A stretch of DNA of 38,463 nt, taken from Lacisediminihabitans sp. Lineage in GTDB: Bacteria; Actinomycetota; Actinomycetes; Actinomycetales; Microbacteriaceae. The notes below the pieces were generated by a model. The model ran no database searches, was not told the origin of the DNA, and saw only the letters and a program-made list of their open reading frames with translations. Shown here piece by piece: positions 2,753 to 32,529 of this stretch. Position numbers and translations under genes: made by a program. The first letter of the stretch is position 1. Every line of letters starts with the position of its first letter. The stretch is from assembly GCA_025362355.1 (NCBI GenBank), contig JANYGT010000208.1, forward strand, positions 1-38,463. Reading direction: 5' to 3'.

Positions 2753-4272
2753 GTGAATCAGAGTCGGTCGTGACAGACGTCGAGAAGGTCTCCGTCGTCA
2801 TCGTCGGTGCCGGTCCCGTCGGCCTCACCGCCGCGCTTCTCCTCGCCCGGCGCGGCATCGATTCGCTGGTGCTGGAACGGCATCCGGCGCCGTATCCCCT
2901 GCCGCGGGCCGTGCACATCGACGGTGAGGTCATGCGGATCCTGCAGGAGGCGGGTGTCGCCGATGGTTTTCGCGGCATCAGTCGCGCCATGCCGGGGCTT
3001 CGACTTCTCGACAGCAGATTGCGCACGATGGCGGAGTTCCGGCGTGACAACCTCGTGGGCGCCGGCGGGCATCCGGAGGCGTCCATGTTCGACCAGCCAG
3101 ACCTCGAGAGGGTGCTGGCCGAGGCCGTGGCCGCGGAGCCGCGGGTGCGGGTCGTCTCGGCGGCGACGGTCACCGGTGTGACCAACGGTTCGGCCGGCGC
3201 GAGTGTGCGCTACGACCTTGCCGGGGAGGAGAAGCGGGTCGACGCCCGCTTCATCCTCGGCTGCGACGGCGCCGGCAGCACCGTGCGCGCCGCTCTCGAC
3301 ATCCAGTTCCGGGATCTCGGTTTCGCCGAACCCTGGCTGGTGGTCGACATCCGCGCCCGCAAGCCGCTCGTCATGTGGGAGGGGGTGCACCAGGTGTGCG
3401 CCAGCGGGCGGGCTGCGACCTACATGCATCTCGTCGGCGACCGGTACCGCTGGGAGTTCCGCATCCTCGAGTCCGACGATCTCAACGAGCTGACGTCGGA
3501 CGAGGGTGTCGCCCGACTCCTCGCCCCGTGGGCGGAGTCCGTCGACCCGGCAGACCTCGAGGTGATCCGCGTCGCCTCCTACACCTTCCGGGCCCGCGTC
3601 GCGGAACGGTGGCGTGTCGGCAGCATCTTCCTGCTCGGCGATGCCGCGCATCTGACCCCGCCGTTCATCGGTCAGGGGCTCGGTGCCGGCCTTCGCGATG
3701 CCCACAACCTGGTCTGGAAGATGGCCCGCGTGTTCGCGGGATCATCGCCGGCCGAGTTCCTCGACAGCTATGAGGCCGAACGCTCGCCCCACGCCGTCAG
3801 CCAGATCCGGTCGGCCGTCGCGATCGGCTGGGCGCTGACCGGCGGGAGCGGTCCGACGGCGGCGTTGCGTCGCACTCTCGTCCGCGCGCTCTCGCGGATC
3901 CCCGCGGTCTCGACCGCCGCCCTGAGTGCGTCCTCTCCCCGGCTGAAACTCCTTCAGCTCGCGAGGGCGCACGCCTCGGTCGGAACGCTGCTTCCGCAGC
4001 CGCGTGAGGGGGACGAGTGGTTCGACGATCGCCTCGGCACGGGATACGCCCTCATCACCCTCGATCCGGTCGCGGATCGTTCGAGCGGTGTCACGATCGT
4101 CGAAGTCTCCTCGTCGAGTGACCTCGGGCGCTGGCTGTCGACGTCGAAGGTGCGAGCCGTGGTCGTGCGCCCGGATCGCGTCGTCGCCGCTGTCGCCCGC
4201 ACGTCGATGGAGATCAGCAGCGTTCTGGATGCCGTCGCCGAGCCGGTCGTCGAGAGGGTGCGCAGCGCGTAG
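2749..4272 (+). CDS. FAD-dependent aromatic monooxygenase (MhpA/UbiH-like)
   Basis: N-terminal VVIVGAGPVGLTAALLLARRGI, central GCDGAGSTVR, and FLLGDAAHLTPPFIGQGLGAGLRDAHNLVWK. ATG at 2749 overlaps the upstream stop (ATGA); the listed ORF starts further upstream. Confidence 0.92.
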   Translation: MSESESVVTDVEKVSVVIVGAGPVGLTAALLLARRGIDSLVLERHPAPYPLPRAVHIDGEVMRILQEAGVADGFRGISRAMPGLRLLDSRLRTMAEFRRDNLVGAGGHPEASMFDQPDLERVLAEAVAAEPRVRVVSAATVTGVTNGSAGASVRYDLAGEEKRVDARFILGCDGAGSTVRAALDIQFRDLGFAEPWLVVDIRARKPLVMWEGVHQVCASGRAATYMHLVGDRYRWEFRILESDDLNELTSDEGVARLLAPWAESVDPADLEVIRVASYTFRARVAERWRVGSIFLLGDAAHLTPPFIGQGLGAGLRDAHNLVWKMARVFAGSSPAEFLDSYEAERSPHAVSQIRSAVAIGWALTGGSGPTAALRRTLVRALSRIPAVSTAALSASSPRLKLLQLARAHASVGTLLPQPREGDEWFDDRLGTGYALITLDPVADRSSGVTIVEVSSSSDLGRWLSTSKVRAVVVRPDRVVAAVARTSMEISSVLDAVAEPVVERVRSA

Positions 4273-29394: not shown

Positions 29395-30024
29395 CTAGAT
29401 CTTGAGGCGGACGAAGAGCGGGGAGCCCCAGAATCCGGTCACGTGTTCGACGTACCGGCCCCAGGTCGGCGAGTTGTACATTCCGCCGGCCCCGTCGTAG
29501 ATGCCGACGTGACGGTGCGGCCACCAGACGAGGTCGCCGGCGACCGCCTGGGACTGATCGATGACGACTCCGAGTGCCGCCTGGTGATCGGCGCCGCGGG
29601 GAAGCTTGATGCCGAGCCCGGCGAACACGTACTGCGTGAATCCGTCGCAGGAGAAGCTCGTGGTCGGGCTGTTGCCGGTGCCGTAGGGGACCACCCCGAC
29701 GAACTGGGCACCATAGGCGAGGATCGCCGCTCCGCTGTAGGCCTGGCCGGGCGGTGTCGCACCGACGAACTTGTTGACGAGCGAAGCCGTCTTCACGAAG
29801 ATCGTCGGCGGAGCTGCTACCGGAGCAGGCTTCGTCACGGTGTAGGCGTCGCGCGCACTGGCTACGACATCCACCGAGGTGGCCACCGAAACCGTCTGCG
29901 CAGCCACCGGACGGGCCTGTACGGCCCCTTGGGGTCCCAGGTCTGCGTAGGCGGGGATGGCCGCGGTTGCGATGATTCCACACGCAACCACGATGGCCCC
30001 CAGCTTTGCCACGGCGGTAGTCAT
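29395..30024 (-). CDS. Secreted NlpC/P60-type cell-wall peptidase
   Basis: Signal peptide KLGAIVVACGIIATAAIPAYA. Catalytic Cys context TTSFSCDGFTQYVFAGLGI, His context DLVWWPHRHVGIYDGAGGMYNSP. Confidence 0.82.
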   Translation of the reverse strand: MTTAVAKLGAIVVACGIIATAAIPAYADLGPQGAVQARPVAAQTVSVATSVDVVASARDAYTVTKPAPVAAPPTIFVKTASLVNKFVGATPPGQAYSGAAILAYGAQFVGVVPYGTGNSPTTSFSCDGFTQYVFAGLGIKLPRGADHQAALGVVIDQSQAVAGDLVWWPHRHVGIYDGAGGMYNSPTWGRYVEHVTGFWGSPLFVRLKI

Positions 30025-30114
30025 CCGACCAGCCTAGGGCAAGGTGTCAAATCGGTAACGGTTCGGGCCAAAATAAAAAATGTTTCCCGACACGCCGAAA
30101 ACACTAGATGTAGT

Positions 30115-30147
30115 GGAATGACAGGAGTGTCATTCCGGTTATATAGT
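30115..30147 (+). promoter_or_regulatory. Candidate promoter with overlapping inverted repeat
   Basis: GGAATGACA-ggag-TGTCATTCC (30115-30136) overlaps a candidate -35 ATGACA (30118-30123). Candidate -10 TATAGT at 30142-30147, spacer 18. Confidence 0.5.
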
Positions 30148-30152
30148 GGGGA

Positions 30153-30204: not shown

Positions 30205-30257
30205 CAACGCTTTTCAATCACAACGCTTTTCAATGACAACGCTTTTCAATGACAACG
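30205..30257 (+). repeat. 16-bp tandem repeat, 3 full copies plus a partial fourth
   Basis: CAACGCTTTTCAATCA, CAACGCTTTTCAATGA, CAACGCTTTTCAATGA, CAACG. Confidence 0.95.
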
Positions 30258-30270
30258 AGGAGGTCCGCAC

Positions 30271-30354
30271 ATGGACAACGACAACAACTTCGTCGGCGGC
30301 TACGCAGTACCCGTAGACCCGATGGACGACCTGCAGTGCGACAGCTGCCAGTAG
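30271..30354 (+). CDS. Candidate small protein/peptide, 27 aa: MDNDNNFVGGYAVPVDPMDDLQCDSCQ
   Basis: ATG at 30271, TAG at 30352-30354. Perfect SD GAGGAGGT at 30257-30264, 6 nt from ATG. Dedicated promoter-like and terminator elements. Not in the supplied ORF track. Confidence 0.72.
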   Translation: MDNDNNFVGGYAVPVDPMDDLQCDSCQ

Positions 30355-30382: not shown

Positions 30383-30419
30383 CAGCCCCGGCGCCAGTGA
30401 TGGCGACCGGGGCTGTTTT
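30383..30419 (+). terminator. Intrinsic terminator after the 27-aa ORF
   Basis: CAGCCCCGG-CGCCA-gtga-TGGCG-a-CCGGGGCTG-TTTT. Confidence 0.8.
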
Positions 30420-30434
30420 GGTTAGGATTTGCGG

Positions 30435-30881
30435 GTGCCAGTAAACCCAGCGCTGCAGGGGCGTGTCTTTCCGCCGACAGCGCCCTATCTCGTCGCGCGG
30501 GAGAAGATTCGCGAGTTCGCCCGTGCCGTGTTCTCCGACAGTCCTCTCTCGCTGGATGTCTCGGCCGCACGCGCGGCGGGCTACGACGATCTCGTCGCCT
30601 CGCCGACCTTCGCGGTCGTCGTACAGGAGTCGACGCTCGCGCAATTGCTCGCCGAGCCCGACGCCGGCATCGATTTCTCCCGCGTCGTCCACGGCGACCA
30701 GCGCTTCTCCTTCAGCCGACCCATCGTGGCGGGCGACGAACTCGTGGCCACCCTCACGATCGCCGGCGTCAAGTCGCTCGGTGGTCATTCGATGGTGACG
30801 GCTCAGTCGGACATCACCGACGCGAGCGGCGAACACGTGGTCACCGCCACGTCGACGCTGGTGGTGCGGGGCGACGAATGA
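30435..30881 (+). CDS. MaoC/HadA-like dehydratase (FAS1-like N-terminal dehydratase domain)
   Basis: VNPALQGRVFPPTAPYLVAREKIREFARAVF...YDDLVASPTFAVVV...RVVHGDQRFSFSRPIVAGDELVATLTI. Upstream of a HadB-like gene and murB. Start GTG 30435 or TTG 30429. Confidence 0.88.
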   Translation: MPVNPALQGRVFPPTAPYLVAREKIREFARAVFSDSPLSLDVSAARAAGYDDLVASPTFAVVVQESTLAQLLAEPDAGIDFSRVVHGDQRFSFSRPIVAGDELVATLTIAGVKSLGGHSMVTAQSDITDASGEHVVTATSTLVVRGDE

Positions 30882-31342
30882 CCGCCCTCAGCATCGGCGA
30901 TGTCATCGCCGAGCGCACCTTCGTCCTGACGCGCGATTCTCTCGTGCGCTACGCCGGGGCATCCGGGGATTTCAATCCGATCCACTACCGCGATGACATC
31001 GCCCGCTCGGTGGGACTCTCCGGCGTACTCGCCCACGGGATGCTCACCATGGGCTTCGCCGTGCAGCCCGTCGTCGACTGGATCGGTGACCCGGCGCGCG
31101 TGCTCGACTACCAGGTGCGCTTCACCCGTCCGGTTCCGGTGGACGCGACGGATGGCGCGACGGTCGCCGTCGTGGCGAAGATCGGCGCGCTGGAATCAGG
31201 CGAAGTGGGGCCGGATCAAGACGGGCCGGATCAAGACGGCCCAGATCAAGTGGGCCCGGATATCGCCCGCATCGACCTGACGGTCACCTTCGACGGCTCG
31301 ACGGTGCTCGGCAAGGCCCAAGTGCGGGTTCGTCTCGGCTGA
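30878..31342 (+). CDS. MaoC/HadB-like dehydratase with a repetitive C-terminal insert
   Basis: DSLVRYAGASGDFNPIHYRDDIARSVGLSGVLAHGMLTMGFAVQPV hydratase motif. C-terminal GPDQDGPDQDGPDQVGPD. Confidence 0.88.
   Translation: MTALSIGDVIAERTFVLTRDSLVRYAGASGDFNPIHYRDDIARSVGLSGVLAHGMLTMGFAVQPVVDWIGDPARVLDYQVRFTRPVPVDATDGATVAVVAKIGALESGEVGPDQDGPDQDGPDQVGPDIARIDLTVTFDGSTVLGKAQVRVRLG
31208..31262 (+). repeat. 15-bp in-frame tandem repeat in the hadB-like gene
   Basis: GGGCCGGATCAAGAC x2 plus one degenerate copy and a partial copy. Confidence 0.9.
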
Positions 31343-32529
31343 TGGACCCTTCCGACCTGACGACCCTCTCCGGACTGACGACCAACTCCGACCTGACGAC
31401 CAACTCCGACCTGCCGACCCTCTCCGACCTGACGACGCTGCGGGTCGGCGGACCCGCTGCACGACTGCTGTCTCCGACGACCGTCGAGGAGCTCGTCTCG
31501 GCGACCCTCGCAGTCTGGGATTCCGGCGAGGAGTGGCTCGTGCTCGGCGGCGGCTCGAATGTGGTCGTCGACGATGACGGATTCGATGGCAGCGTCATCC
31601 GCACGCTCACCCGGGGAATCGAGCTGAGCCGGGAATCACAGACGAGCACCTCGGATGACGCGGGCCGGGTACTCGTCAACGTGCAGGCCGGCGAACCCTG
31701 GGACGCCCTCGTCGCGTCCACCGTCGAGCGTGGACTGGCCGGGATCGAGGCGCTGTCCGGAATCCCGGGGTCGTCGGGCGCAGCGCCCATCCAGAACATC
31801 GGAGCGTACGGCCAGGAGCTCGGCGACACGCTCGTCGCCCTCGACTTCGTCGATCATGCCACCGGGGAGCGAACCCGGTTGCGCGCCGACGAGCTCGAGC
31901 TCGGGTACCGCACCTCCGCGCTCAAGGCGGGTCGGCGGGGACTCGTCGTCGCTATCGAACTGCGGCTGACAGACGGCGGTGGGCTGAGCGATCCGATCCG
32001 TTATCCGCAACTCGCGACGGCCCTCGGTGTTCCGCTCGGTGAACGGCTTCCGCTCGGCACGGTTCGTGATGCCGTGCTGGCGCTTCGGGCCGCGAAGGGG
32101 ATGCTGCTCGACGCGAAAGACCCCGACTCGGTCAGTGCCGGCTCCTTCTTCACCAACCCGATCGTGAGCGACTCGTTCGCGAGGGGCCTTCCGAAGGATG
32201 CGCCGCGGTGGCCCGTCGACGACCAGCCTGTCGCCGAGCCCATCGTGCTGCCGCTCGACGCCGACATCCCGCAGCGCGAATTTCCGACCGCCGAAGCGGT
32301 GAAGCTGAGCGCCGCCTGGCTCATCGAGAACTCGGGAATCACCCGCGGGTTCCGGCTTCCCGGTTCCCGCGCGGCGATCTCGAGCAAGCACAGCCTCGCC
32401 ATCGTGAATACCGGCGGGGCGACGAGCGCGCAGATCGCCGAACTGGCGCGCTACATCCAGACGAGGGTGCTGACCGAGTTCGGCGTGATCCTGCAGCCGG
32501 AACCGGTGTTCGTCGGCAGCGCGCTCTGA
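31342..32529 (+). CDS. murB: UDP-N-acetylmuramate dehydrogenase
   Basis: DLTTLRVGGPAARL...WLVLGGGSNVVV...LSGIPGSSGAAPIQNIGAYGQEL...SAGSFFTNPIV. Confidence 0.96.
   Translation: MDPSDLTTLSGLTTNSDLTTNSDLPTLSDLTTLRVGGPAARLLSPTTVEELVSATLAVWDSGEEWLVLGGGSNVVVDDDGFDGSVIRTLTRGIELSRESQTSTSDDAGRVLVNVQAGEPWDALVASTVERGLAGIEALSGIPGSSGAAPIQNIGAYGQELGDTLVALDFVDHATGERTRLRADELELGYRTSALKAGRRGLVVAIELRLTDGGGLSDPIRYPQLATALGVPLGERLPLGTVRDAVLALRAAKGMLLDAKDPDSVSAGSFFTNPIVSDSFARGLPKDAPRWPVDDQPVAEPIVLPLDADIPQREFPTAEAVKLSAAWLIENSGITRGFRLPGSRAAISSKHSLAIVNTGGATSAQIAELARYIQTRVLTEFGVILQPEPVFVGSAL
31351..31440 (+). repeat. 18-bp tandem repeat x5 in the murB 5' end
   Basis: Units encode SDLTTL SGLTTN SDLTTN SDLPTL SDLTTL. 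Confidence 0.92.

Follow-up and report, generated by a model that had tools for sequence, protein, structure and literature searches.

A 27-codon gene of Microbacteriaceae predicted to encode a detached redox tail of class I ribonucleotide reductase

Organisation of the locus

The window analysed here, the 38,463 nucleotides of contig C222 of a Lacisediminihabitans sp. assembly (3.19 Mb in 304 contigs, with an estimated completeness of 79%), carries on its forward strand an 84-nt open reading frame of 27 codons, ATG to TAG, at positions 30271–30354, with the product MDNDNNFVGGYAVPVDPMDDLQCDSCQ. A Shine-Dalgarno sequence, GAGGAGGT (30257–30264), lies 6 nt from the ATG, and an intrinsic terminator follows the gene (30383–30419), composed of a hairpin at 30383–30415 that begins 28 nt past the TAG and a TTTT run at 30416–30419, with a z-score of -4.4 against shuffled sequences. 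Upstream, a sigma-70-like promoter is predicted by consensus match (30118–30147), with a -35 hexamer ATGACA at 30118–30123, an 18-nt spacer, and a -10 hexamer TATAGT at 30142–30147. Two NrdR-type boxes accompany this promoter, box 1 (ACACTAGATGTAGTGG, 30101–30116) matching the consensus ACACWATATATWGTGT at 13 of 16 positions, and box 2 (TCCGGTTATATAGTGG, 30134–30149) following box 1 in a 33-bp register and containing the -10 hexamer. The initial annotation had proposed an unannotated 27-codon gene that forms a transcription unit of its own, with a Shine-Dalgarno sequence at 6-nt spacing and a terminator with TTTT about 30 nt after the stop. All of this holds, the gene looks translated, and the promoter-like element with an inverted repeat that it described corresponds to the NrdR box pair around the sigma-70-like promoter.

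Between the promoter and the Shine-Dalgarno sequence lies a 16-bp tandem repeat, CAACGCTTTTCAATGA, in 3.3 copies (30205–30257, forward strand), which was not found in the leaders of the tail genes of relatives and belongs to the window copy only; it is possibly a recent expansion altering the length of the leader. The domain scan places a divergent NlpC/P60 gene upstream (29395–30024, reverse strand) and hadA, hadB, and murB downstream on the forward strand (30435–32529), with the terminator standing between the small gene and hadA. An Rfam scan of the window at gathering thresholds gave no match, and the peptide, scanned against Pfam, NCBIfam, and PHROGs, matched no family.

Conservation of the small gene

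A tblastn search with the 27-aa peptide gave matches in 38 of 99 relatives (best match 1e-14), 35 of them within its own family, which contributes 60 of the 99 genomes. With a pN/pS of 0.13, pooled within the genus, the gene (hereafter the tail gene) is judged to be under purifying selection, and the 27-codon ATG to TAG frame first proposed from the window is thus real. A profile search recovered the tail in 136 of 300 family genomes, usually in two copies and in at most eight, with further copies present elsewhere in the source genome; neither these copies, nor the tandem repeat, nor the link to ribonucleotide reductase described below figured in the initial annotation. Named carriers in genome_contigs include Lacisediminihabitans, Frigoribacterium, Microcella, Salinibacterium, Cryobacterium, Clavibacter, and Aurantimicrobium, with the separate tail genes of Microbacteriaceae spanning 22–40 codons, and most records that hold the tail ORF leave it unannotated.

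Relatives share the Shine-Dalgarno sequence, the start, and a C-terminus ending exactly in CQ-stop, and nearly all of them have an AGGAGG-like element upstream of the ATG. The conserved tail segment of the window gene, GGYAVPVDPMDDLQCDSCQ (30295–30351, forward strand), ends in the C-terminal Gln, and residues P14, D16, P17, C23, C26, and Q27 are invariant in alignment A1, so that the CxxC tail, whose conservation had been put forward as a check on the gene, is retained. The Cys pair is located at the extreme C-terminus, as C23-x-x-C26-Q27-stop (C23 at 30337–30339 and C26 at 30346–30348), within the tail consensus VDPMDxLQC[D/E]SCQ-stop. Synteny with hadAB-murB, a further check put forward at the outset, is likewise borne out, with hadA adjoining 39 of the 45 standalone loci tested.

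The source assembly contains another tail-hadA-hadB-murB set, likewise with NrdR boxes (L033, G000:C78:26000-32000), which shows only ~71% identity in alignable DNA; the contig that holds it is probably a contaminant of a metagenome-type assembly.

Relationship to the large subunit of ribonucleotide reductase

Ribonucleotide reductase (RNR) makes DNA precursors de novo, and the swinging tail that bears its cysteines is regarded as belonging to the large subunit. The usual set in Microbacteriaceae consists of two tail copies, one flanked by nrdA and nrdB and the other standing alone beside hadAB-murB. The nrdA-linked copy directly follows an ORF of ~790 aa, identified as the RNR large subunit (Ribonuc_red_lgN and lgC; NCBIfam NF005101, ‘ribonucleoside-diphosphate reductase subunit alpha’, 1502 bits), and precedes an ORF of ~330 aa identified as the small subunit (Ribonuc_red_sm). 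At 20 loci from four other actinobacterial families (f5, f10, f38, f45) NrdA itself ends in the fused tail, as in the examples VGGVACPVDPMERLQCESCQ and ACPVDPQERLQCESCQ, and the tail model, built from 22 rows of which three are fused tails, matches fused NrdA C-termini with E-values down to 7e-11. Fused tails hold a third conserved Cys (ACPVDP) that is replaced in split tails (YAVPVDP), and the mechanism may therefore differ in detail.

At all 34 nrdA-tail junctions of Microbacteriaceae the nrdA stop codon precedes the tail ORF, often with a start-stop overlap of the ATGA/TGATG type. None of the 34 split NrdAs has a Cys after the conserved TTYYL, their C-terminus being a cysteine-free linker rich in Ala, Pro, and Gly. 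The closest solved structure to split NrdA is 5im3, the NrdA of Pseudomonas aeruginosa, with which the cysteine motifs NCF, SNLCTE, and VCNL and the TTYYL of split NrdA align, and on this alignment the catalytic core of the split enzyme looks intact. In a tree of the NrdA barrel a single branch (82/92) separates the split NrdAs from the others, which is compatible with one detachment; in this reconstruction an ancestral nrdA was cut once, between linker and tail, on the branch from which the Microbacteriaceae class Ia RNR descends.

The distribution of the tail follows the type of the large subunit. In the first survey, covering 60 family genomes, a class Ia-type NrdA was found in 33, each of which also encodes the tail peptide (33/33), and a class Ib NrdE (over the TIGR04170 cut-off) was found in 25, with the tail peptide in none of these (0/25). 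This perfect match across 58 relatives corresponds to a Fisher p of 6e-17, a value which ignores shared ancestry, so that the effective sample behind it is smaller. Two tail-positive assemblies of 64% completeness gave no RNR large-subunit match, presumably due to their incompleteness. One genome of the larger survey (G191) showed a weak tail match (1.5e-5) and yet an RNR of NrdE length.

Four genomes (G027, G105, G189, and G275) have nrdB directly after nrdA, with no tail ORF between them, and the sole tail copy found in each stands elsewhere, 33 kb from nrdA in G027. This copy is preceded by NrdR boxes in all four genomes and lies beside hadA in three of them. As G027, G189, and the pair G105/G275 occupy separate places in the tree, the nrdA-adjoining copy was lost at least three times, and these genomes provide evidence from nature that a tail gene distant from nrdA still yields a working tail. 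With the tail in a separate ORF, and no tail adjoining nrdA in these four genomes, it does not behave as a covalent part of the large subunit.

NrdR boxes upstream of the tail genes

The published NrdR box consensus is acaCwAtATaTwGtg, with two boxes placed an integral number of helix turns apart (PMC4009431). Pairs were accepted at a score of at least 21/32 against this consensus, shuffled versions of the same regions never scoring above 20. NrdR pairs were found upstream of 42 of the 63 copies read that are not linked to nrdA; of the other 21, most either lie on mobile elements or are fused or linked to nrdA in a way that went unrecognised by the script. A second set, the standalone loci of genome_contigs, which partly overlaps the first, has an NrdR pair in 77 of 78 cases. 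No pair was found directly upstream of nrdA-linked copies (0/45) or at viral tail copies (0/80).

The same NrdR pair occurs upstream of nrdA in the same genomes, with a score of 23/32 in the source genome, and nrdR itself is encoded in the source genome and in the five relatives tested (TIGR00244, over cut-off). Both features of an NrdR regulon, two boxes ~31–33 bp apart and an NrdR gene in the genome, are therefore found. The window locus resembles known members of the regulon in having the same two boxes in 33-bp register over the promoter, however the controlled gene here is a micropeptide gene and not a known nrd gene. Since the -10 hexamer lies inside box 2 and the -35 hexamer between the boxes, NrdR binding should repress the gene; the predicted binding would cover the promoter of the window tail gene.

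Copies on phages, plasmids, and other mobile elements

An IMG/VR scan revealed the tail on at least 360 viral contigs, with all 80 of the viral copies kept for inspection ending exactly at the Q-stop. The usual viral position is after the terminase large subunit gene or a holin gene. Tail ORFs, mostly unannotated, are also present on the Clavibacter phages CMP1 and CN1A, on Pontimonas phage phiPsal1, and on Leifsonia and Clavibacter plasmids. No RNR large subunit was found on 50 larger viral contigs, many of which are fragments, nor on phiPsal1, CMP1, CN1A, and the two plasmids checked. As mobile copies come without NrdR boxes and without an RNR large subunit, they probably provide the RNR of the host with reducing power whether or not NrdR is active, and the simplest reading of the viral copies is that the host enzyme is their target, with NrdR control bypassed.

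On a plasmid of Leifsonia sp. ZF2019 (L158, 3962–4063) a 33-aa tail is named ‘ribonucleotide-diphosphate reductase subunit beta’ by RefSeq (WP_223361114.1), which is a misannotation. Pseudanabaena phage Pan2, whose assigned host is cyanobacterial, carries an annotated 27-codon hypothetical gene (L160, 3002–3085) for the tail-like peptide DDFDTIDGFACPNDPADLVSCESCQ, which may represent a second lineage with a detached tail.

The redox-tail model does not account for the few mobile-element tails that are joined to unrelated proteins. At one locus on the minus strand (L084, G057:C26, ending at 3460 of the reverse complement) the tail is fused in frame to a remnant of an NrdH-like redoxin, to which NrdH models align only beyond their first 14 or 15 positions (from 15 or 16 onwards) and which shows no CxxC of its own; the N-terminus of NrdH seems to lie in another frame. 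Tails also end other reading frames at L075 (G035:C7), L049 (G005:C1), L076 (G057:C26), and L078 (G040:C1), with a truncated SSB-like protein as the partner at L075, and with L049 located near genes of mobile-element type such as LPD29. One genome, G054, holds six tail copies (among them L035, L037, L040, L042, and L044), and a leader, CCGGAAGGCAAAGA, is common to at least two of these and to L076 of G057, in mobile-looking regions.

Discussion

Homology, genomic context, and the NrdR boxes together lead us to identify the window peptide, on sequence grounds, as the detached redox tail of a class I NrdA. We assign a probability of about 0.86 to the reading in which the tail gene encodes a trans-acting redox tail of class I (NrdA-type) RNR as a free 27-residue protein, and we infer the biochemistry as follows. 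NrdA would be left with an active-site disulfide after each turnover, and the free peptide would dock near the active site via the conserved VGGYxVPVDPM segment, with C23 and C26 reducing the disulfide by thiol-disulfide exchange. The oxidised peptide would in turn be re-reduced by thioredoxin or an NrdH-type redoxin, and the NrdR boxes would switch the tail gene together with nrdAB at high dATP.

The separate NrdR control of the tail and its carriage by phages would also fit a regulator or competitor at the tail-docking site of NrdA, with another redoxin reducing the active site directly, and dithiothreitol (DTT) and similar small molecules can directly reduce RNR active sites (PMC4520616); TCEP acts by way of the tail cysteines (PMC5704485). 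However, every NrdA of the split architecture is without tail cysteines of its own, at least one CxxC tail is kept in every genome examined, and relatives with a fused tail use the same segment in cis; the invariance of both Cys residues would moreover be needless for a competitor, and we consider a regulatory role unlikely.

Joining of the tail to NrdA by ribosomal frameshifting or stop readthrough at the junction, with free peptide as a minor product, finds some encouragement in the 8 of 34 junctions at which the tail shares the frame of the nrdA stop codon, and in the frequent overlap of the tail frame with the end of nrdA. The other 26 junctions are however distributed over both remaining frames, with overlaps of the ATGA/TGATG type as in translational coupling, and standalone copies have their own Shine-Dalgarno sequence and NrdR promoter. 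These junction frames, together with the four genomes, from at least three lineages, that have no tail beside nrdA, led us to reject such a fusion, which we regard as very unlikely.

The initial annotation had suggested a RiPP precursor, a thiol- or metal-binding micropeptide, or a regulatory leader peptide, options that the short peptide with an acidic N-terminus and a C-terminal CxxC, and the terminator downstream, might favour. Against this stand the homology to the RNR tail, the NrdR-type promoter, and the unrelated neighbours of the gene in phages and plasmids. No modification enzyme is conserved beside the tail gene or travels with it, the conserved neighbours encoding HadA, HadB, MurB, and NlpC/P60, and the RiPP proposal is abandoned. 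A leader peptide fares no better, with hadA following most standalone copies and nrdB, phage genes, or plasmid genes following others; furthermore, a terminator placed behind a self-contained coding unit does not have the anatomy of an attenuator. Of these suggestions the thiol micropeptide came nearest and was a sound one, the CxxC looking functional; metal binding is not supported, and the RiPP precursor, the metal-binding micropeptide, and the leader peptide together appear highly improbable. A non-functional relic or chance ORF, as the very short length and the lack of annotation in most records might suggest, is hardly credible and is refuted by conservation; it is opposed by the pN/pS of 0.13, the exact C-terminus of the 80 viral copies, the association with NrdA type, and repeated mobilisation.

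The proposed trans-acting tail shares its homologous sequence, terminal CxxC, and partner enzyme with the tails of class I RNRs (NrdA/NrdE), such as the fused actinobacterial CPVDPQERLQCESCQ. In contrast to these, the window type occupies a separate gene of 22–40 codons, often away from nrdA, and the detached tails keep two of the three tail cysteines. The genes-in-pieces nrdA of phage Aeh1 is likewise a class I NrdA in separate pieces, but there a homing endonuclease divides the catalytic part, whereas the split in Microbacteriaceae falls at the redox tail. In the split class II NrdJa/NrdJb of Pseudomonas aeruginosa, a separate subunit supplies thiol-disulfide exchange, NrdJb binding with sub-micromolar affinity and being needed in vivo (PMC4520616); the equivalent domain, when fused, has 150–220 aa, six conserved Cys residues, and zinc (PMC5704485). 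Both systems have the reducing, cysteine-bearing part encoded apart from the catalytic subunit on which it acts or, for the tail, would act, and NrdJa/NrdJb is the closest experimental precedent for the detached tail. However, NrdJa is a class II (B12) enzyme, and NrdJb is a folded domain, always encoded by the partner gene of nrdJa and not homologous to the tail; the window peptide instead has 27 aa, two Cys residues, and homology to a class I tail. The glutaredoxin-NrdB of Facklamia ignava is likewise an RNR redox partner relocated by gene rearrangement, but by fusion with a full glutaredoxin domain and not by detachment (PMC6187632). Searches of the open-access literature brought up no class I RNR described as having a free, trans-acting tail peptide.

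We hold it reasonably probable that a large group of Microbacteriaceae runs its RNR with a detached, diffusible, separately regulated tail of ~25 residues, and that phages and plasmids carry the NrdR-independent tail gene alone, as an auxiliary metabolic gene of ~75 bp driving the host RNR during infection. Such a gene is usually missed by annotation pipelines. Since a synthetic peptide can serve as the tail and be supplied, mutated, or exchanged, this is a ready system for the measurement of docking and disulfide exchange. A bacterial family appears to run an essential RNR with its tail as a separate protein of 22–40 residues, doubled and under its own NrdR promoter, with hundreds of tail-only viral contigs suggesting that phages can control host dNTP synthesis by a gene of ~75 bp.
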